From: Spirogloea muscicola
Taxonomy: Eukaryota; Streptophyta; Zygnematophyceae; Spirogloeales; Spirogloeaceae
Direction of reading: 5' to 3'
Length of the DNA stretch: 20,689 nt
Assembly (NCBI GenBank): GCA_009602725.1
Contig: WELB01000046.1
Location: forward strand, 601,088 to 621,776
Shown: piece by piece, positions 1 to 18,957 of the stretch
Layout of the letters: each line of letters opens with the position of its first letter
Numbering within the stretch: the first letter of the stretch is position 1
Notes under the pieces: model-generated
The model's input: only the letters and a program-made list of their open reading frames with translations
Told to the model about the DNA's origin: nothing
Database searches by the model: none
Position numbers and translations under genes: made by a program

Positions 1-602
1 CCTGCAGCGCTCCCAAGCGCTTGCTTTGCACCGCCGCGCTGGTCGCGCCCTTGCAGCAGCCTCTGGCTTGCGCAGCGGGGTTGCTCTTCCTCCCCTCAGC
101 TCATCTGACTTCTTACTGCTGACACGGGGGTATTGAGGGCGCCCTGTCTGCCTAGCCTTTGGCTCCGTCATGAACACCTGTATGCATCTGGCTGGCATTT
201 CACAGCCGATTCTTTCATATCAGCAGCCGCTTTCTCCTCGCTGCCCGCTACCCGGAGACTGGTCTCTGTAATCTGCGTCGGCTTTTTTACATGATTGAAT
301 AGCACCCAGTGGCCACCTGAGTTGCTGTTTGGCTCCACGCTTTGCCGGCCCCCAACAATTTGTACATTCTTTTCCTGGGCTGGTGAATTATAGCCATTCT
401 CTACTGGAAGAGCCTTCCTCCCTCCTCCGACTGCACCGCCTCAGGCCAAGGCCCCACCTCGCACCGGCCGCTCCAAGGCAGCAGCTGCAGGCAGAAAGTG
501 GCTGCTCATTTGCGTCTCACGCAGCTCTCTCGCCCCACTTGCTCGCAGGCACTTGTGCGCGCACCAGCTGCAGCTCGTCGGCCACTCGCTCACGCTGCAG
601 CA
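1..602 (+). mobile_element. LINE 3' end, tail type A (5' cut by window edge)
   Basis: The first 136 bases encode the last 44 residues of the LINE C-terminal domain (LQRSQALALHRRAGRAL..., ending LTRGY then TGA at 134-136). A 3' tail follows, with the hairpin core GGGCTGG...TAGCC near 376-396 and a segment around 437-560 that recurs at 5880-6010 and on the minus strand at 19975-20120. Comparison with the minus-strand copy suggests the tail runs to about 602 (CACGCTGCAGCAG). It therefore ends about 33 nt before the start codon of LOB-like copy 1. The 5' extent is unknown because the window begins inside the element. It is nearly identical to 5270-6012 but lacks 181 nt found there. It is non-autonomous debris. 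Confidence 0.75.
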
Positions 603-635: not shown

Positions 636-1287
636 ATGGCTGACCCTGACCCCACCGAACCAGGGCCAGCAAGCGGTCCGTCGAAGAAGCTTCCTCGGGG
701 CCGCCCATCCCCGACCAGGAAAGCTTGCTCCCACTGCCGCCTCAACGCGCACAAGTGCCCAGTTGATTGTCCGCTGACCGGCACAGATCACAAGCCTTTC
801 AGCGAGGCGACACTCGCGCGCTTCGAAGAGATCCAATCTTTTCTTGGCAGTGACCACACCCTCAAGCACTTGAGAAAGGCGGATACAGGCTGCAGACGCA
901 ACACGCTACTACAAAGGTGCCACTCTCGCTACTCAAGCTCCACTTCGCCTTTTCTGGCAGCTGGGGCACTTTTCAAAGACAAAGTCCTGCGCTTCGCAAT
1001 CACTAGATCTGCTTACGGACCTTCGTAAATGACTCCCGCCAGATCCAACCGTGTGTCACCCAACCCCATCGTCGCCCTCCCTTCCATTGCACCGGGGCCG
1101 CACTCCATACCTCCCCAGCCACTTTCCGCTCTTCCTAACTGGTGCCTCGCCACAAGCAACAGCAATCAATTTTGAAGCATGAAGCAATTCTTGTGGGTGC
1201 TGCAGTCTACACTCTTATGCGGAGCGCGAAAGGTACATTGAGGAGTTGCTGAACAAGATCCAAGCAGTTGAGGAAAAAATCAAGTAA
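636..1287 (+). CDS. LOB-domain-like protein, copy 1 (two exons visible)
   Basis: ATG at 636 sits in the context CCGCCATGG. Exon 1 (636-916) encodes 93 residues: a basic, proline-rich N-terminus with an RGRP motif, then C31-x2-C34-x6-C41-x3-C45 and PLTGTDHKPF, then a stretch aligning with the LBD GAS block (F-x2-I-x3-L-G...L-x2-L). A donor (ACAAAG|GTGCC) is followed by an acceptor (GTGCTGCAG) ending at 1205. Exon 2 from 1206 stays in frame and encodes SLHSYAERERYIEELL and a short coiled coil. LBD proteins have S-L-x-Y-E-A-x-A-R at the matching place. A second donor, GTAAGG, is at 1284; without splicing there the frame stops at TAA 1285-1287 (about 120 residues). Exon 2 is one base shorter than in copies 2 and 3, so the 3' end is uncertain. 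By homology it would be a nuclear DNA-binding regulator. Family call is moderate; the gene structure is supported by three paralogues. Confidence 0.68.
917..1205 (+). other. intron 1 of LOB-like copy 1
   Basis: The 289-nt interval is flanked by GT and AG. It joins phase 2 to the exon 2 frame. The corresponding 286-nt interval in copy 3 (18674-18389, minus) is recognisably the same sequence along most of its length, so the two genes were duplicated with their intron. A retained-intron reading would end at the TAA in 1026-1028. Confidence 0.65.
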
Positions 1288-4139: not shown

Positions 4140-4853
4140 CTCCCTCCTCAGAAGAAAGAGCTCGCCCATTGAGGATAGGGGCTGGAACAGCCAGCCCAAA
4201 AAAGAAAGAACAAAGCGCGAGAAGGCAAAACAGCACGCAAAGAAAGAAAGCAGCTACACATCACTCAGTAACCCCTGCTAAGCAGCCGCAAATCAGAGAG
4301 GCTAGGGTCCTGAAACTGGGTCCCCTGGCCAGAGCCAGAGGCAGCAGCAAGAGCCCTGCCGGCACGAAGGTGCAGCGCACGGGCCATCGACCGCTGCAGC
4401 GAGACGGCCAGGCGCATGCGATACAATTGCGCCAGCGACCCTGCTGCAGGGAAGTCTACAGGCTCCCCATTGAAGTGACGGGCGATGGTGTGGCGGGCGA
4501 GCTGGGTGAGCAGCTCGAGCCACCGAGCGCCCAGCGCCCCATGGGTGTCTATGGCCAACGGGAAGAACTTGTCAGCCGGCGAATGGTCAGCGTACTTGAT
4601 CTCCTTAGCGCGAGCGGCGCCGGCGACCGCATACCCAGCCTTGGTGGCACACTGGGCTGGGTGGGAGCGGTCGAAGGCGTCGGTGGTCACCACGTCCAGG
4701 AGAAGGCGTGGCCCGCCGGCCTGTGGGGTGGCCACCAGGTCTACGCGCCGGGCGTGGAGACCGTCGGCCCTCTCCTGGAGCGGCATGACGCCGGAGTGCT
4801 CCGCAGCCACCGAGAAGCCCGCCTCCGCCAGGATGCCATGCATCGCATCGCAT
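4140..4853 (-). mobile_element. LINE C-terminal endonuclease-like domain plus 3' tail, minus strand
   Basis: An open frame on 4843-4265 gives 192 residues. Its start is a 5' truncation, not a true initiation site. In order it shows M-P-L-Q-E-R-A-D-G-L-H, RRVDLVA (D35), LLLDVVTTD (second D at 50), a helical stretch, then YRMRLAVSLQRS, AGRAL and SRGY-TGA. R-x2-D followed by D after 14 residues matches the spacing of restriction-like endonuclease motifs in some LINEs, so nicking of the target DNA is the inferred role. Related C-termini occur in algal LINE proteins. The tail has arms GGGCTGG (4179-4185) and CCAGCCC (4191-4197). This is one of the two best-preserved endonuclease regions here and has no internal stop. 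Confidence 0.72.
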
Positions 4854-4990
4854 TGCTTTGTTTTCTTAGCGCTTCCTCTGGCCCCCTTCTCGAACTTTGT
4901 TCATTCTTTTTTGGGCTGGCTTTTCCAGCCCCTATCCTCAGTGGGAGAGCCCTTCCCGAGAAGGGGGCTAGGGCAAAGGGATAATAAAAG
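4854..4990 (+). mobile_element. LINE 3' tail fragment, plus strand
   Basis: Contains CCCCCTTCTCGAACTTTG, then stem arms GGGCTGG (4913-4919) and CCAGCCC (4925-4931), then CCTATCCTCAGTGGG. It lies against the truncated 5' end of the minus-strand copy at 4853, consistent with that copy having landed in or next to an older tail. Confidence 0.55.
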
Positions 4991-5169: not shown

Positions 5170-6013
5170 CTCAAGCTGACCAGCGGCGCCGGGAGCAGGG
5201 TGCTGCCCTTCCCGGTGGCTCGGTGCCTTTGCGTCTGGTGTCCTGCTACCGTATGCGACTGTCTATGTCCCTGCAGCGCTCCCAAGCGCTTGCTTTGCAC
5301 CGCCGCGCTGGTCGCGCCCTTGCAGCAGCCTCTGGCTTGCGCAGCGGGGTTGCTCTTCCTCCCCTCAGCTCATCTGACTTCCTACTGCTGACACGGGGGT
5401 ATTGAGGGCGCCCTGTCTGCCTAGCCTTTGGCTCCGTCATGAACACCTGTATGCATCTGGCTGGCATTTCACAGCCGATTCTTTCATATCAGCAGCCGCT
5501 TTCTTTCTCTCTCCCGGCAGGGGGCAGCCGCGCGTGGCCCGCCCGCGCGCCTCCCTCCCGGCGTACCGCCCACCTCCCTCCTCCGACGCCGCGGCCGGCC
5601 GACCGGCCGGCCGCCTCCTCCCTCCTCCCCCTCCCCCCTCTCGGCAGGGATTGCCGCGAGCGAGCTGCCGCGGGACCTCCCTCCTCCTCGCTACCCGCTA
5701 CCCGGAGACTGGTCTCTCTAATCTGCGTCTGCTCTACATGATTGAATAGCACCCACTGGCCACCTGAGTTGCTGTTTGGCTCCACGCTTTTCCGGCCCCT
5801 GACAATATGTACATTCTTTTCCTGGGCTGGCCAATGATAGCCATGCTCTACTGGAAGAGCCTTCCCCCCTCCTCCGACTGCACCGCCTCAGGCCAAGACC
5901 CCACCTCGCACTGGCCGCTCCAAACCAGCAGCTACAGGCAGACATTGGCCGCTCATTTGCGTCTCACGCAGCTCTCTCGCCCCACTTGCTCGCATGCACT
6001 TGTGCGCGCACCT
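5170..6013 (+). mobile_element. LINE 3' end, tail type A, long version
   Basis: The frame ending at 5405 encodes YRMRLSMSLQRSQALALHRR...LTRGY-TGA; homology becomes clear at about 5246. From 5270 the sequence matches 1 onward almost base for base. It differs by 181 extra nt at 5505-5685, a pyrimidine-rich, CG-rich block. A related block is present in the minus-strand type A copy at 20440-20290, so loss from the copy at position 1 is likelier than gain here. The tail hairpin GGGCTGGCCAATGATAGCC is near 5826-5844. Similarity to other type A tails stops near 6013. Confidence 0.75.
5591..5614. repeat. 10-bp perfect inverted repeat (GCGGCCGGCC, 4-nt spacer GACC)
   Basis: Arms 5591-5600 and 5605-5614 are exact reverse complements. 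They lie in the 181-nt block missing from the copy at position 1. A strong hairpin of this kind could favour deletion during replication. Confidence 0.7.
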
Positions 6014-6646: not shown

Positions 6647-8695
6647 TCAAATAGCAGTGTCATGATGGACGCAAAATTTGAAATAGTAATCATGAGCTAG
6701 ACCAAAGTCGGCCACACATCGCTCTTCAACCCTCTCCAGACGAGCTACTCTTGCTCGATGCAAAGTAATGTTTGCAACATCTCGCGGCAGCCGTTTGACC
6801 TTCGTATAAGAGAGGCCGGCCACATGCACATATGCTAGTTGGCTACAAGTGGCTAGGAGGTCGGCAATCATCCGGATGTAAAGACTCTTCTCGGGGAAAC
6901 GCCAGCAACAGCATATGCGCATAACCTGCAGGCTTGTGCATGGGCTCACCAAGCGTGAGATACTCTGATAAAGGTTTGACCCAAAGGCATATTGTGCAAT
7001 ATCCGGGCTGGACGTCATTGCCACCTCTGTAGGGCATGGAAATGCCTGTAATCTGTCCTCAGAGACCTCAGTGTCTCTCATGTAACCTGGCCATGCCTCC
7101 CCAGGCCTTGCAAAGGGCACCCTACCAAGGTCCAGGCTGCCAAGCTTACTGCAACCGGCAAGAATTGTCGTCTAGTCCGTGCCATGGTGCAGCTCAAAAA
7201 TATCAGCAGGTTGAAGTGCTGTTAGACCAGAGCACCAGCCGCCAAATCTCCAAAAACTATGCATAATTTCGTCTGGGCCCCAACAAGATTCAAAGTCGAG
7301 GGAACGGAGCGATTGAAGACTGGTAGGGAAGTACAAGTCCGTTCCAGTGAAGCCAATCCCCTCCATAGTGAGAGCCTCTATGTGAGGGGCTTTTGCCAAG
7401 AAGGCACCCAAATGCGAAGCTGTCACTGTCCACCATACCAACCTCAGCTTCAAAAGGGATGGAAGCTCGTTGCAAGCGACCAGCCACTGATCGAGGGCAC
7501 CACCTGAGCCAAGAATGTGAAGCTCTTGCAGCTGCCGGCAAGAGGCAGCTGAGTCCTTGAGAACAACAGTGTTGTCATCATCTGGGATGCGTATCACTAC
7601 TACCTGCAACCTCGAGAGTGCTGTAGCTAAGTCCGGCAGCAGCTCGTCGCAAATCCAGGGGATGAAGCTGAGAAGCCGCGTCAGTGAGCAGCATGATGAC
7701 ATTAGCGCCTCATAGGAGTACGTCGACAGCTCTGGACACTCTTGAAGGCGGACCTGCTGTAGCAGCGGGCAAGCGGAGGCTAGCGCAGCAATCCCGGCGT
7801 CCGTAATCTCGGTGTAGCCAGTCAAGAGGAGCGATCGTAACTGCGGCAAATTGTTGGCAATGTGTAGAACTCCTGCGTCTGTGAGAGTATACGGCCGCCA
7901 GTGGTAGCTGCTGCTGAGCTCCAGCTCCGTGAGACGCTTGCATGAAACTACGATACTTTGGATGTCCGCGTCTGCATAGGGCGTCATCAATCACATTGGT
8001 CCGTCAGACGCCCATCTTTTTACAAGAAGGGAAGGCCGATTTGCACTGCATCGACAGGGTATTGACCATCTAGATCAAGCATCTGGGTCAGGGCACGTAC
8101 TACAGAGTGCAGTAGCAGCTCACCAGAGTAGCCGCACTCCAACATGGAGAGGCTCTCCAGGGCCGTGAGCTGGGCAATGAGGGGGACCAGATTGGCCGGG
8201 GGGTAGTGGAGAACCAGCCCCCGCATGATCCGTGCATGGGGAACGAGAGCAGTTACACCGTCAATCAGCTGCTCTATTGGTACGTGGATGTGCTCTTCAG
8301 AGTTCACGTGCCGACACACGGACCGCAGGGTCACCCGCAGGTCTGAGAGTGCAGTGGCAGCCGTCAGCGAGCGGAAGTCGGGGAAAAGTGGACCCCGGCT
8401 TCCGCTCGCGGAGTAGCTGACGGTGAGGCGTAGCCGCGCGAGGCTCGGGAAGGCTGTGGCCAGCGCCGGGCCGAGCTCCCGCTTCTTGAGCACCGACGGC
8501 ACCTGCAAGTCCGCGCGCCGCGGCCTGCGCTGGCGCAGCGCCAGCTCGGTGACGGAGGCCTCGGACCAGGCGGCGCCAGGCGCGGCAGACGCGCGCGAGC
8601 GGGAGCCAGCCGGAGGCGCCGAGAGGGACGTGGGCGGTCGGCGCGGCGGCGCGGGCGAGGACCGCCGCCAGGCACTCGTCCGGCAGGCTGTTCAT
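6647..8695 (-). CDS. F-box / leucine-rich-repeat protein, interrupted gene model
   Basis: ATG at 8695 (CCGCCATGA) opens MNSLPDECLAAVL...LARVCRAWRRL, a typical F-box that would bind Skp1 in an SCF ubiquitin ligase. A single-base frame change near 8580 is needed to reach ELALRQRR...LATAFPSLARLRL, which runs to TAA at 8022-8020. A donor GTAAAA lies at 8023. The 52-nt intron ending CTATGCAG does not keep frame; a 68-nt one ending CCAAAG at 7956 does. LRRs continue (LTDAGVLHIANNLPQLRSLL, ITDAGIAALASACPLL, of the cysteine-containing FBXL/AMN1 kind). TAG at 7174-7172 interrupts the frame, yet the same frame resumes with AGCSKLGSLDLGRV and runs to TGA at 6649-6647. The LRRs would recognise a substrate, unknown here. 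It may be a pseudogene, or a working gene with sequence errors or an unseen intron. Confidence 0.6.
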
Positions 8696-9909: not shown

Positions 9910-10538
9910 TCAAAAAGCCGAAAGAAGNCCCAGGTGAGCTGCTTGGGACAGGCGAGCCAGTGGACGGCACCCAAGGCCGCCTATGCTGGTAGGAAGGGTA
10001 CACTGGAGGATGGCAGCCGGCGTGGCGGACAAATTGGGATGGTCCACCAGGCCGTGAAGAGCCTGTTGGAGTCTGGAGTCCACGGTAGAGTAGATGGCGT
10101 TTAGTGCCGTGGTGGGGGGTACAGTCCGCAACAGGTAAGTGGGACGCTGGGCCACACACCGGGTGAGGATGGCCACCGCAAGCTGCGCATCCTGTAAGGA
10201 GGGGAGGGCCGGGAGGATCTGGAGATGGTTCTCAAGGGTGGACTCCACAACTTGCTCCACATGCGCAGCAGCCCCCAACGGGACTCCAAGCACCACCATG
10301 CCGAGTGGTGGGGTCTGGCACCCAGCCGGCAGCTTGATGGAGGGAGGGATGCCGGCTGGAGACCAGGCTGAACACTTTTCAGGCCGGATGTGGAGGCCGA
10401 GGATGTGAAGCTCGCGCTCCAACGTGCTGTAAGCGCTGGTGACTTCAGTTGGGGGTCCCGCAAGGGTGGTGTCGTCGGCGTAGCTTGGGATCAGGACAGC
10501 AGGGTGGGCCTCCGCCGTATTACGCAGCGAAGAGAGCC
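9910..10538 (-). pseudogene. LINE reverse transcriptase fragment (YADD motif)
   Basis: The minus-strand frame shows the RT catalytic motif SYADDTTLAG (YADD at 10482-10471), then LGLHIRPEKCSAWSP and VLGVPLG, the usual motifs C, D and E. A thumb-like stretch follows (HLQILPALPSLQDAQLAV...) ending TLPTSIGGLGCRPLARL. The N-terminal fingers and palm motifs A and B are missing: homology starts abruptly at about 10538, where a hairpin module of another tail begins. Residues in front of that point are translated tail sequence. The frame ends at 9910 just past an N at 9928. It is the only polymerase sequence in the window and cannot be active as it stands. Confidence 0.82.
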
Positions 10539-10890
10539 TATAGAGAAGAGTGGCTGGCAAAGCCAGCCCAGAAAGAATGGACAATATCCCAAGCCAAAGA
10601 AAGAGGTTTCTCAAAGCGAGGGGCGGGCCGCTGGTTAAAATCAGAAATGGCTCTCCCAAATGGGGGCAAGGGCTGTGAAAAGCCAGCCCGAAAAGAATTG
10701 ACAAAGGTTCGAAGGGGACAAATGACGGAGGAGCCTAAAAGAGAGAAGGCGCGCGGTGCGCATGAAATTAAAGCGAGGCCAATTCAAGCCATTACATTGT
10801 TCAGGCAAAGAGAGAACAAGAGAACGAAGCAATTCAGACCAGAAAAGACCAGAAAGTACGAGGGAATGTGGCGGTTGGAATAGAACGGGA
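10539..10890 (-). mobile_element. LINE 3' tail, minus strand
   Basis: Two hairpins: arms 10670-10675/10684-10689 and, further along the minus strand, 10552-10558/10562-10568 with a 3-base loop. The stretch 10742-10810 matches the reverse complement of 3244-3335. The tail ends where the RT fragment begins. Confidence 0.6.
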
Positions 10891-11119: not shown

Positions 11120-12052
11120 CAGATCGAGGAAGTGGCTCTCCTAGATGAGAGCAAGGGCTGTCAGATCAAGAAAGAAGTGGTACTCCCAATGGGGGCAAGG
11201 GCTGCGAAAAGCCAGCCCAAAAGAATTGACAAAGGTTCGAAGGGGCCTAAGAGCGTTGAGCAGCTACAAAGGGGCCTGAGGATGCGAAGGGAAAAACAGG
11301 GGGAGGATGGATCACTCAGTAATTACGAGTGAGGAGCCTCTGATCCGACAGACTAGCTGCCGGGAAGCTATCACCCTGACGAAAGCCAGAGGCCGCAGCA
11401 AGAGCACGGCCAGCACGCAGATGCAGAGCGTGGGCCATGGACCGCTGGAGGGACACTGACAATTTCATCCGGTATACCTGAGCCCACGAGCCAGCTGCTT
11501 CAAAGTCAGCCGGCTCGCCGCGTCGGCGGGATACAGCACGCCGCGCGAGCCTGGCCAACAGGTCGAGCCACTGGGACCCGAGAGCCCCGTGCACGTCCAC
11601 TGCCAGGGTAATGAATTCATCTGCAGCCGGGTGGTCGGCGTGCTTGGACGCCTTGCTGCGAGCAGCCTTCGCCGCAGCATGGCCAGCCCGCGAGGCAGAG
11701 AGCCCCGGGTTGGAGCGGTCGACCACTTCGGTGGTGACCACGTCGGCGATGATGCGCGCGTCGCCGCCCGGCGTGGACGCCACCAGGTCGACTCGGCGCG
11801 TATGGATTCCGTCGGCCCTCTTGAGGATGGGCATGACGGAGGCGTTCTCCATTGCGACCGTGTAGCCAGCCTCCTGAAAGATGCCGAACATGGCATCGCG
11901 CAGAAGATCGTGAGCCGCTGTACGTTCACCTCCAGTGCCGACAGCAGCCGAGCACGGCCGCGCACGTCGCTGGCAGGCAGGAGCTGCAGCAAGGCCGTGA
12001 ACGACGCCGTGTCGACGGCCGCCATGTAGCGCGCCTGCGCCTGTGAGACCAT
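11120..12052 (-). mobile_element. LINE C-terminal endonuclease-like region plus 3' tail, minus strand
   Basis: The longest LINE coding stretch after the RT fragment. Minus-strand 12052 onward encodes SQAQARYMAAVDTASFTALL... up to EVNVQR. A one-base frame change near 11910 leads to AHDLLRDAMFGIFQEAGY. The frame then runs to 11316: HTRRVDLVAS (D35 of the 191-residue frame), IIADVVTTE (D50), a helical stretch, YRMKLSVSLQRS, AGRAL and LLTRNY-TGA. D35 and D50 spacing is the same as in the copy at 4140-4853. The tail has hairpin arms at 11199-11204/11213-11218 and a partial second module near 11130-11155. Its truncated 5' end lies 60 nt from the 5' end of a plus-strand copy. Confidence 0.72.
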
Positions 12053-12083
12053 GGTGTCAGATCCAGCAGATCCCGAGGCGGCA

Positions 12084-12480
12084 AGAGAGAAGGCGCGCGG
12101 TGCGCATGAAATTGGAAGGGGCGCTGCCCGGCTTCAACGCCGCCGGGTCGCTCGCCCACGTCTTTCGGATGCGCTTGGCGGTATCGTTCCAACGATCGCT
12201 TGCCCTCGCAGTCCACACGCGCGCCGGACGCGCTCTGGCCGCCGCCTCCGGGTCTCGGCGGAGCGCCTCCTTCCCCGCATCGAGCTATTCTGACCTGCTG
12301 TTGCTCACTCATGGGTATTGAGCTTCCCTAGTGCGTTGTTGTGTTTGGTAGAGTAGTCCTTCTTTGGCATCTCTTTCTTTGGCTTTGGACATTGTCTTTT
12401 TGGGCTGGCTTTGCCAGCCCCTCTTCTCTATGGGCGAGCCCTTTCATCTTGAAAGGGAGGCCAATTCTAGCCTTACAAGT
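12084..12480 (+). mobile_element. LINE 3' end, plus strand
   Basis: Encodes LPGFNAAGSLAHVFRMRL, SFQRSLALAVHTRAGRAL and SYSDLLLLTHGY with TGA at 12319-12321. The tail has the strongest hairpin in the window (GGGCTGGC 12402-12409, TTT, GCCAGCCC 12413-12420). The 29 nt at 12084-12112, just before the coding part, equal the 29 nt at 10742-10770, which belong to the tail of another copy in opposite sense. Confidence 0.72.
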
Positions 12481-13165: not shown

Positions 13166-13184
13166 AAGAAAGTACTGAGTGCCT

Positions 13185-13335
13185 CGTCGCCACCTGAGTC
13201 ACTGTGTGCCTTAGCTTGTTTTCTGGTCCATTACTATTTCCAGTACTATTTCATCCATTACTATTTTATTCATTATTCTGGGCTGGCCACTCACAGCCAT
13301 CGTCCTCTACTGGAAGCGTCTCTCTCTTCTTAAGG
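13185..13335 (+). mobile_element. LINE 3' tail type A fragment
   Basis: Contains CGCCACCTGAGTCACTGTG and GGGCTGGCCACTCACAGCC with CTCTACTGGAAG after it, as in the tails at 330-415 and 5757-5860. Between them is a run of imperfect CCATTACTATTT repeats (about 13228-13270). Confidence 0.6.
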
Positions 13336-14242
13336 AGGCAAATTGAGGTGATCTTTGAGGGGTCCGGCTTTGTCTGGTATCACACCGACATTTCACGACC
13401 AGCTTACCTGCTGGTGGGTACTCCCACAGGACTTAAAGATGATGAAGTAAGGCTATAGTCGGGTTTGCAAGCAGTGTATTGCAAGTATTGATATGCCCCT
13501 CACAAGGCTTCCCTCGTTGCGCTTCTCTTTCTAAGTGACTTAGCGGTGTGTAGTGATGGAGAGGGCAAGGTGGATAGCTTGCTTCTACTGATCTACTCAA
13601 AAGACAATGATGGGTCAGAACCTTATTCAGTCTGGTCACAGAGGGTTTAGGAGCGAATTCCTACATCGTGAAGCACCACATACACTACGCAGTGGAGTGC
13701 GTTGCCCGGAGGTGCCCGGAGGTAAGAAGCGGCAATTCCATCTCCCGGGCACAAGCCAGCAACTGCCCTCACAGTGAGCAGCATCGGACTACGTACAGAG
13801 AGCCGGCACCGAGCCACAGGTACCGGCAGCTGCAACGGGCTGCAGCAGCACGCACCAGCAGGGCTGATGCAACGAGGGCCTGCAGCAGCAGGCAGCAGCA
13901 AAGCTGCGCCCATTTCTTGGTGATTGCAGATTCCCACTTGTGGTTGTGCTTCTCCGAGCCGCCTTCCATCCAGGGTGCAGAAACTAAAAGCACAAATCAA
14001 CCACCATAGCAACCGAGAGTCAGCCACTCCTTGTACAAGGCTGATGCCCACTGCTTGGAGGGCTACAGCCTTCCTGACATGGAGTAGAGCTTGCCATCTG
14101 CGTGCATGCCTTTGTCTTTGCAACTCGCTGCCAATACATTATCTGAGACTCTACCTAGGCTGCACTTGTTGCGCTTGATGACTTGCTCATTGACATCAAT
14201 GATGTGGTTGTCAGCACCATTTTCTACCCACCTGTCATCGTT
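13336..14242. other. No firm feature; CAG/CTG-rich stretch at 13825-13905
   Basis: A minus-strand frame (14123-13647, 158 codons) and an overlapping plus-strand frame (13668-14009) are open, but neither has recognisable domains. Their composition reflects the CAG-rich stretch. Part of the region lies just past the stop of LOB-like copy 2 and probably holds its 3' UTR. Confidence 0.35.
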
Positions 14243-15011
14243 TTAGTCAAGTGGCGGCGGGATGTCCCATGCAGAGTCAATGACGACATCGAACTCCAGC
14301 AATAATGTCCACTCGGGATCTGCGTCAAGGTCAGGACATGAGCTTGACCAGGCATCTACTTCAAATTGTCTTGACCTCAATTTTGGATGTCTACGCATCC
14401 ATTCCAGCAGAATGTCCTGGTCCTGGTCCTTACCGCCTGGGACAACACCTACATCGTCGTTGAAAAGCTGTAGGCCGTCGAGGGATAAATATTGCAGTTC
14501 CGCTTCCTTGCTACTCAGTAGCATCTGCGACAAAGAATGAGAGTGTAAAGAATGAGATTGAGAAGCCCACCCCAGCAACGGGTAGGTCGTGCAGGTAGAC
14601 AGGCTGGTTTTTGACACAATCAAAGTTTTCTCCCTCTGGTAGACACAGCAAATATGCGTTGGCAGTTTGTGGTTGCTGTGTGTGTTGCGGGCTGCTTGCC
14701 AGCTTCAGCTAGTCCTTACTTACTTCCAGCTCGGCGACCTTGTGTGATATCATTTCCAGTAGCTCCTCAGAAGCTGCATCGTGATCATTTCGGTCTTCGT
14801 CCTTTTTCAAGAAGTGCTGTACCAAAAGGGAATGGAAGTATAGCCTGAAGCAAACAAGTGAGACAATCTTATTGAGATGCGTGGGGTTGCGGACGGGCCC
14901 TCAAGGCTCCGAAGAGGCTCTCGAACTATAGGATTGGAGGGAGTCAGTGGCGGTTGAGTGAAGGCAGGGAGGGGCGGTGGGCGGCGAGGAGAGCGAGAGA
15001 GCGCAAGCAAG

Positions 15012-15094
<83 letters not shown>

Positions 15095-15668
15095 NACAGA
15101 GACAGAGACAGAGACAGAGACAGAGACAGAGACAGAGACAGAGACAGAGACAGAGACAGAGACAGAGACAGAGACAGAGACAGAGACAGAGACAGAGACA
15201 GAGACAGAGACAGAGACAGAGACAGAGACAGAGACAGAGACAGAGACAGAAGCAGAGACTGAGACTGAGATAGAGACTGAGACAGAGAGACTGAGACTGA
15301 GAGAGGGCGGAAGAGAGAAAGGGCGAAGTAAAGGAGAGGGGGAGGACATACGTTTGCAGGAGGTGGTCGCGCTGCGCCTTCCCGACGCGCTTTAAGCGCT
15401 GCAGCACCTTGTCAGTGCCGTAGGTCTGGTGAATGACCGCGTACTCAGCCTGCTGCACCTGCGTCGAAGGCTTGAAGCTGGTTCCAGTAAACGGGCACGA
15501 CTCCGCGCACGGCTTCCTCGCCTTGCGGCACGAGGTGCACGAGAACCTCGTCGCGGGTGGCCGCGGAGCCTGCGGCAGTGCTGGCGGCTCCTCCGCCAGC
15601 ACTGGTTGCTCCTCCGCTGCTGGCTCTTGGTCGTCGTCAGGACGCCGGCGGCGCGGGCGGCGCGCCAT
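14243..15668 (-). CDS. LOB-domain-like protein, copy 2 (three exons)
   Basis: ATG at 15668 (CTGAGCATGGCG). Exons 15668-15352, 14844-14724 and 14524-14243 join in frame to about 239 residues. Residues 3-10 are arginine-rich, a possible nuclear signal. Then come C44-x2-C47-x6-C54-x3-C58, exactly the LBD C-block spacing, and PFTGTSFKP. The segment YAVIHQTYGTDKVLQRL aligns with the LBD GAS block (F-x-x-V-H-K-x-F-G-A-S-x-V). Intron 1 (GTATGT donor, TTGCTTCAG acceptor) and intron 2 (GTAAGT donor, GTCGCAG acceptor) look normal. Across exons 2 and 3, LLEMISHKVAELE plus MLLSSKEAELQYL makes one continuous predicted coiled coil, suggesting dimerisation. The C-terminus is acidic and Trp-containing (QDQDILLEW, DLDADPEW), which might activate transcription. 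It is the best copy in the window. A remote zinc-binding family other than LOB is the main alternative. Confidence 0.72.
14845..15351 (-). other. intron 1 of LOB-like copy 2
   Basis: The intron begins GTATGTCCTCC at 15351 and ends TTTGCTTCAG at 14845 (507 nt). Both sites fit the phase-2 junction seen in the two paralogues. It contains the microsatellites that make it longer than the 286-289 nt introns of copies 1 and 3. Confidence 0.65.
15015..15295. repeat. compound microsatellite (TG)n-N-(ACAGAG)n
   Basis: About 80 nt of pure TG/GT runs to 15094. An N follows at 15095, then a hexamer array (GACAGA) to about 15250, which decays to GAGACTGAGACT variants. Copy number is probably unreliable across the N. 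Seen from the gene it is a pyrimidine-rich CTGTCT array followed by CA repeats inside intron 1. Confidence 0.9.
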
Positions 15669-16640: not shown

Positions 16641-18300
16641 TCTCTGAAGAGAAGATCGTTTCTTTCGTGCCATGAATGTATCCATGTCAAATCACCGTGC
16701 TGCAAAGCTGCGAAGATGGCGGTAGCAGGTGGGCATCATTGTCCACATCTCTGACCATCTACCTTGTTACGAGTCATAACGCGGTACTTTGAGCGGGCCC
16801 TTCCGCCTCGCGCTCTTGCCGCCTCTCTTGCAACACACTCTGAAGTGAGGTTCCACATCCATGCTGCAGCTGGAGGCAGTTGCCGCCTGCAGCCATTGGT
16901 CAGCGCATATAGTAAAGCTGAACGAGCTGCATCAGGATCATGCTCGACTGTCCTTCCACAAGCTGTGCCTCACCTGCGGGTGGATTGAAGTGGTCGACAT
17001 TGCACAGTGTCTGAGTGCTCATGACATTCTGAACAGTCCGCCTCCCGGGCTCTGAGTCCCAATCAACCAATCCGGGCTCTAAGCTCCAACCAACAGTCCC
17101 GCGTCAACGACCCGCAAAGGCCCGAATGGCCGTTGACAGTCTACCACCAATGGTCTACCCAAAAGTGGCTGAGATCCACTTTATGGTCTAGCGTAAATGT
17201 GTATAAGTATTTTCAAACTTCATCGCTAACAACCACTTACAGTCTACTAGTGGTCTTCAAGGCGGTCTTCTTCCGTCGCCATTTCACGCACCAGCACCAC
17301 ACTATCTCGCACCACGACTCTTGCTTGCGCGCTGCGCTGTGCACTTCGATAGTGCACAATTGCACTACTGAAGTTCTAGAGGCAGCAGACCAGCTTCCTC
17401 ACTCGTCCGCCTGGTGAGATTCCTAAGTTCTCCAAGAATCTGGCCGTCTTGCTGTGCCATTGAGAAATTCAGCGATGGGACATCATTACACTTATGAGGC
17501 GTTACCCGGGCTTGCATTGCATGCTTGTGCAAGCGACCCGACACGACGCACGACATTGTCTGCCCGCAGTCCCTTGGCCTTGCCATGTTCCTCGAGGCCA
17601 CAAGTTTTCTCTCATGTATAGCATTCCTTTTCTCGTTCTATGTTTACTTGCTGCCGATACACGGCCCTCTTGCAGAAACACTTTCCTTGCTGCACATGAT
17701 CATGCGTGCAAGATCAAGCGAAGGCTATCGCCCTCACCCCCCCCCCCTCCCCTAATTCACCCGTCTTTATTTCTCTGTGCCTCCTCATTGTTTCCCTTCT
17801 CTCTGCCTCTCTTCTTTCTGAGAAGGCTTGGGCGACATGACTAGGCCTCTGCTCGTCCTGCTACGATGCAAATACAAGTCGCACATTCTCTTGTCGGCTG
17901 TACCTATTCTGCCGGCCTCGTTCTGCTCGTGAGAAGGAGATTGCATTTCGGACAGATATCTTCAGTCCTAAGAATATTAATGGGTAAAACAAGCGAGGGT
18001 CATTCAGATGTTCATTTGCTTCATAAATGTAGTCCACTCAGTCAGGCATTCGAGCCCAGCCATCTAAGCGGTATTCAACTTCAAGCTGGCCCCTTCATCC
18101 TGTTTCACATACAATGCTATCAGGTCAATACTTGACTTCTGGTAAATATATTGGGTACTTTGCCAGCTGAAAGCATGCCTTGAAACAGGCTGAACCAGCA
18201 CGTGCTAGACAGAAGAGGAGGCAGACATTATCTCGATTGGGTGCTACATGAAAGACTAGGTTCATTTCCTCAGAATCAGTACTCGCTCGTGCTCCCTCGG
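16640..18300. other. No recognised gene; small imperfect tandem repeat at 17047-17100
   Basis: Frames are short (116 codons at most) and show no domain I recognise. CGGGCTCTGAGTCCCAATCA recurs about 28 nt on as CGGGCTCTAAGCTCCAACCA. A C-rich run sits at 17735-17755. No LINE module is seen. The part below 18310 adjoins LOB-like copy 3 and would hold its later exons if they exist. Confidence 0.35.
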
Positions 18301-18309
18301 CCTCCTTAC

Positions 18310-18957
18310 TTTAATTTCTTTCTCAATTGCTTCGATCTGCGTCAGCAACTCAATTGTGTGCTCAAGGCGCTCCCCGAGAAAGTATAGCCTGCAGCACCCA
18401 CAAGAATTGCTTCAGACTTTAGAATTGATTGCTGTTGGTTGTGGCGAGGCATCAATTAGGAAGAGCGAAAAGTGGCTGGGAAGGCATGGAGTGCAGCCCC
18501 GGTGCAATGGAAGGGAGGGCGACGAGTGGTTGGATGACACACGGTTGAATCTGGCGGGAGTCATTTACAAGGGTCCGTAAGCAGATCTATTGACTGCGAA
18601 GCGCAGGACTGTCTCTGAAAAGTGCCACAGCTGCCAGAATAGGCGAAGTGGAAAATGAGTGGCGAGAGTGGTACCTTTCTAATAGCGCGTTACGTTTGCA
18701 TCCTGTAGCATCTTCGGTCACCTTTTTCAAGAGCCTTCAAGATGCGTGTAACACCAAATTCAGTGCGCAAATTTCGCAACCGCGGATTGTCGGCGCGCTG
18801 AAGGGCTTGTAGACCGTGCCGGTCAACGGACATTTCTTGGTGCACGGCTTTTGGGTGAGACGACAGGCGGCGCAGGCCTTGGGGGTCGGGATGGGCGGCG
18901 CCGAGGACGCTTCTGTGGCCGACCGTCTGCTGGCTCATTAGGGCCAGGGTCAGCCAT
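18310..18957 (-). pseudogene. LOB-domain-like copy 3, frame-broken duplicate of copy 1
   Basis: ATG at 18957 (CCACCGCAATGGC) opens MADPGPNEPADGRPQKRPRR, like MADPDPTEPG of copy 1. One C is missing near 18889 compared with copy 1. In the next frame the C-block is intact: KACAACRLTQKPCTKKCPL, again C-x2-C-x6-C-x3-C, then TGTVYKPFSAPTIR. Another shift near 18781 leads to LRNLRTEFGVTRILKALEK (the GAS-like block), and a third near 18722 to TEDATGCKRNALLER. The intron (18674-18389) and exon 2 (18388-18310; ERLEHTIELLTQIEAIEKEI, with a GTAAGG donor) are well kept and in phase. Good splice sites beside three frame changes fit a young pseudogene, or indel errors in a draft sequence. Confidence 0.65.

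Follow-up and report, generated by a model that had tools for sequence, protein, structure and literature searches.

A stretch of 20,689 nucleotides of contig WELB01000046.1 (positions 601,088 to 621,776 of the forward strand, the window hereafter) carries three loci with the cysteine block of the LOB-domain (LBD) transcription factors of plants: XA at 636 on the plus strand, XB at 14243-15668 and XC at about 18957, both on the minus strand, together referred to as group X. With a probability of about 0.8, group X is a divergent LOB-domain group in a zygnematophyte, descended from a Class I-type LBD, which lost characteristic motifs, became clustered and later multiplied when the genome as a whole did. 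Within this proposal, the LOB homology, the gene structure, the copies found and their rates of evolution are established directly. Beside canonical Class I and Class II LBDs, this alga, from the lineage that is sister to land plants, would hold three strongly diverged LOB groups (X and two others, Y and Z), a finding relevant to the ways in which plant regulators diversify and are lost.

LOB homology and gene structure

An earlier reading made from the sequence alone (the sequence-only reading) had seen three C-x2-C-x6-C-x3-C loci, each followed by a block resembling the GAS region of LBDs, and all three were recovered, at 726 (+), 15539 (-) and 18874 (-). In 200 sequences simulated from the neighbour frequencies of the window, this cysteine pattern occurred on average 0.045 times, with a maximum of one match per sequence. 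An additional match at 5230 (+) has no LOB-like sequence behind it.

XB is spliced exactly into the 239-residue protein previously read, with three exons, GT-AG introns and 717 coding bases before the stop (Table 1). The profile check proposed at the time gave a significant match of this spliced protein to the Pfam family PF03195 (LOB), at 40.4 bits (E 4.4e-10) for a curated cut-off of 24.2 bits, with no better family. Exon 1 alone reached 36.1 bits in the genome search, and no Pfam family was found for the unspliced XB open frame. XA, with two exons and 120 amino acids, scores above the LOB cut-off when spliced (25.5 bits) and below it when unspliced (19.8 bits). All other Pfam families considered for X (PHY, ArsC, tRNA-synt_1b, LMSTEN, MerR_1 and DUF4211) remained below their own cut-offs. 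The best PDB match of a profile built from X only is the wheat Ramosa2 LOB domain (PDB 5LY0), and the positions and phases of the X introns are common to the Class I LBDs of the same genome. A structure comparison of X with the LOB fold gave a weak signal, in a test in which the positive control failed. The LOB homology of the X loci is well supported at the sequence level because the Pfam profile, the PDB sequence search and the common intron positions and phases point to it, as does, weakly, the structure comparison. Within XB intron 1, (GT)n and (CAGAGA)n runs occupy window 15017-15246, and the open frame through them has no profile match.

Table 1. Positions of group X exons and introns and of a recurrent tail in the window
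Feature	Position	Strand	Description
XA exon 1	636..916	+	PRGRP, then Cys block, GAS-like block
XA exon 2 and stop	1206..1287	+	SLHSYAERERYIEELLNKIQAVEEKIK
XB exon 1	15352..15668	-	Arg-rich/acidic N-terminus, C-x2-C-x6-C-x3-C, PFTGTSFKP segment, GAS-like block; donor GTATGT, phase 2
XB intron 1	14845..15351	-	Contains (TCTCTG)n and (AC)n microsatellites
XB exon 2	14724..14844	-	LYFHSLL... at the site of canonical SLxYEAxARxxxPxYG; AG acceptor, GTAAGT donor, phase 0
XB exon 3 and stop	14243..14524	-	C-terminal region, acidic tail at end
XC exon 1, broken	18674..18957	-	Start, Cys block, GAS block and exon end in frames 1, 0, 2, 0
XC exon 2 remnant	18286..18390	-	RLYFLGERLEHTIELLTQIEAIEKEIK
Tail like MRLAVSLQRS..A.H.RAGRALAAASG	4265-4900; 11316-12056; 12001-12321	-; -; +	

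Motifs kept and lost

The four cysteines are invariant in all five X models, and their spacing is kept in XA, XB and, in a broken frame, XC. The glycine of the GAS block is invariant in the same five models and in a 12-row alignment, and nearly so over 16 rows, the exception being the Y copy on contig C259, which has serine; the block itself reads YGTDKV or LGSDHT in X, not FGAS. Behind the Cys block, X lacks a FAPYFPP-type segment and has PFTGTSFKP or PLTGTDHKP there; the canonical counterpart is FAPFFP in Class I row C1b of this genome, and Class II is also without FAPYFPP (VLRPCL). A DPVYG-like string is found in none of the five X models, the position reading DPIRG, YPVCG or DPLRG in Y, DPVEG or YPVEG in Z, and EPIYG or NPVFG in canonical genes. 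The absence of DPVYG is why X is called LOB-derived rather than typical LBD, and the segments of PxTGTxxKP type, along with the missing FAPYFPP and DPVYG, support the divergent LOB branch postulated from the sequence.

Two other points of the sequence-only reading stood in part. The exon said to match S-L-x-Y-E-A-x-A-R in the copy at 636 is present, but it starts with S-L-H-S-Y-A-E-R-E-R and fits only loosely. The coiled coil is short; a relaxed pattern (L/I/V/M) was found in XB only, and the strict LX6LX3LX6L is missing from both open window copies, XA and XB. The strict form does occur in XA of C47 and C66; it is also missing in the canonical rows, a weak test as these were modelled only to intron 2.

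Compared with Class I LBDs and Ramosa2, X is alike in its Cys spacing, the glycine of the GAS region, the arginine of the QRxD region and a LOB score over the cut-off, to which the Class I genes of this genome add the same position and phase of intron 1. It is unlike them in the segments replacing FAPYFPP, the lack of DPVYG, a zipper pattern that is short or absent, an AT-hook-like or Arg-rich N-terminus, the acidic tail of XB and a ratio of nonsynonymous to synonymous substitution rates (Ka/Ks) of 0.55-1.4. Class II LBDs (C112 and C205 here) share the Cys block and LOB profile with X, but have intron 1 elsewhere (after QRP, phase 1), retain NPVFG and show a Ka/Ks of 0.02. The PRGRP of XA is presumably an AT-hook core. 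The last 34 residues of XB include 9 D/E, no K/R and 12 hydrophobic residues, an end that we take to resemble acidic activation tails.

Excerpts of PMC10118128 describe the Ramosa2 domain as a zinc finger, a GAS motif of two helices, DPVYG and a zipper-like helix. By analogy with it, the four-Cys block of X would bind zinc and contact DNA, and the GAS helices with the short helix that follows could support dimerisation, the geometry of which should be altered by the loss of DPVYG. The AT-hook-like or Arg-rich N-terminus would add DNA affinity, and the acidic tail of XB, by comparison with known tails, may activate transcription.

LOB genes in the genome

The genome searched comprises 153 Mb in 471 contigs, and since only the best candidates were scored, all copy counts are lower bounds. 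Exon-1 pieces of X were found on C46 (three), C47 (at 615.4, 621.7, 621.9, 625.5 and 632 kb) and C66 (at 516.8 and 525.8 kb), forming one cluster on each of these three contigs only. The amplification suggested for the family is accordingly seen locally, with nothing wider among the candidates scored. The X region is collinear across contigs, window 13173-15094 matching C47 at 87% and C66 at 85%. Group Y lies on C32, C122 and C259, and group Z on C5, C138, C54, C149 and C35 (three close copies and two others). A second Z copy on C149 (L038:117-345, +) has stops within the Cys block. Two matches, C3:1261418 (E 0.02) and C96:41214 (E 0.65, two stops), were omitted as too weak.

Canonical LBDs of land-plant type are present as well: Class I on C188, C398, C16 and C38, the C16 gene reading CAACRFLRRRC..DCAFAPFFP...FGVANTTKLL...SLIYEAQARVNEPIYGCVG, and Class II on C112 and C205, reading MSCNGCRVLRKGC...FFGRAG...SLLYEACGRT. 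In the Class I genes of this alga (L040, L044/L045), the Cys block seems to be interrupted by an additional phase-0 intron (C-V-S|D-C, C-S-R|D-C), which is absent in X, Y and Z.

Over the 99 positions of the LOB profile, Y is covered from 1 to 97 (77.2 bits), Z from 1 to 87 (44.6 bits) and the window X copies from 1 to 66 (40.4 and 25.5 bits). As judged by these scores, Y, Z and window X form a graded series away from typical LBDs. A tree of the LOB genes separates divergent from canonical members (83/81), with 4 of its 14 inner branches starred; it is unrooted and weak, its long branches meet, and the early or parallel LOB lineage of the sequence-only reading is not shown by it. In the proposal made here, X would descend from an LBD gene whose introns were of Class I type; the X lineage would then have lost DPVYG as well as the FAPYFPP segment, and a small X cluster may have formed before being multiplied with the whole genome. 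Among the viral_contigs, 56 stretches matched the pattern in a scan with the X profile and none was confirmed. No publication describing the divergent X, Y and Z groups was recognised in the literature searches made; supplementary TAPscan counts for S. muscicola may include them.

Rates of evolution and decay

Two of the three divergent groups change much faster at the protein level, copies of similar age providing a built-in clock. Ka/Ks is 0.55-1.40 in X, with no significant constraint, and 0.02-0.15 in two canonical pairs; the significance test covered the direction of constraint only. Several X copies are broken, and the group probably consists of derived DNA-binding paralogues, partly in decay. 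Because constraint has been weak since the copies parted and several of them are broken, XB may be either functional or newly decaying. These rates suggest that, for this lineage, LBD counts based on profiles lump together genes under constraint and genes in decay.

The strongest alternative, to which we give somewhat less than an even chance, is that the X cluster is a relic, a formerly working LBD group released from selection and now decaying, with the XB frame merely still open. In addition to the broken copies and the unconstrained Ka/Ks of X, this would account for a pooled Ka/Ks of 1.13 in the N-terminus of XB and for the fact that, against the C66 partner, the XB exons (84, 77 and 85% identity) are no better kept than intron 2 (81%) or the 3' flank (89%).

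It is less probable, indeed rather unlikely, that X and Y function as transcription factors and are subject to diversifying selection, for instance in mating or in microbial or transposon conflict, with frames kept open while residues change quickly. The three Y copies, with Ka/Ks of 0.90-1.05 and no gaps over 199 codons, argue for this, the chance of all three remaining stop-free under neutral substitution being 0.3-0.5%, as do pooled Ka/Ks values of 2.0 for XA exon 2 and 1.7 for Y exon 2, each on few sites. Against it stand the small number of sites and a significance test limited to the direction of constraint. Similarly doubtful is the broader idea that, in an alga closely related to land plants, LOB factors were the source of separate families (X, Y and Z) that diversify fast, with plant-type motifs lost, frames open, near-neutral change and a role akin to conflict or mating, in contrast to the conserved developmental LBDs.

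It is very improbable that the Cys motif comes from a protein encoded by a transposon and dispersed along with the surrounding repeats: repeats are abundant in the window, which also shows a weak match to reverse transcriptase, below its cut-off, but among the candidates scored X lay only in its clusters on C46, C47 and C66, the other clear LOB matches were the distinct groups Y and Z, and a transposon origin found no support.

Host lineage

RBCS in this genome is land-plant-like: its exon has its highest score, 120.7 bits, with the chain called small subunit 1A, chloroplastic, and reaches 88 bits with 1gk8, which we take to be from Chlamydomonas. GRAS exons have 92 matches in the genome. The rbcL family had no match and the 18S 5'-end pattern no exact match in the genome search. 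X and Y are found on three contigs each, and several GRAS sets appear threefold by eye, a pattern resembling the tripled genome reported for S. muscicola in excerpts of PMC7994812 and PMC11712027. Against this pattern, RBCS has four copies and each canonical LBD group two. According to passages of PMC11712027 and PMC11096116, GRAS and Class II LBD (LOB2) go back to the ancestor shared by zygnematophytes and land plants, and LOB1 to that of Klebsormidiales and Phragmoplastophyta; an LBD survey, in the part concerned, lists none in five green algae (PMC10003661). The host would therefore be a streptophyte and a zygnematophyte, most likely Spirogloea muscicola, and LBDs are to be expected in such a lineage, the circumstance under which the sequence-only reading had considered its find less unusual.

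That reading had placed the family possibly in a chlorophyte. A chlorophyte host, with LBDs either inherited from the ancestor of green plants or gained horizontally, is ruled out for practical purposes by RBCS, GRAS and the presence of canonical LBDs of Classes I and II, as well as by the copy pattern, no analysis being in its favour. This removes a claim that would have placed the origin of LBDs earlier, at the root of the green plants.

Other features of the window

An open frame at window 7172-7990 (-) scores 37.5 bits (cut-off 27) with PF24758, the FBD-associated F-box LRR family. The Rfam scan of the window returned no match. The reverse-transcriptase match lies within 9910-10734 (-) and scores 15.5 bits. 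A tail found in repeats (Table 1), and also in L004 and L006, is in several cases followed by SDL.LLTRGY and a stop, and is perhaps the 3' end of an open reading frame of a non-LTR (long terminal repeat) retrotransposon. A direct repeat of 235 bases, 99.6% identical, occupies window 1-235 and 5270-5504, and the stretches adjoining it recur as well, in inverted orientation, near 20 kb.
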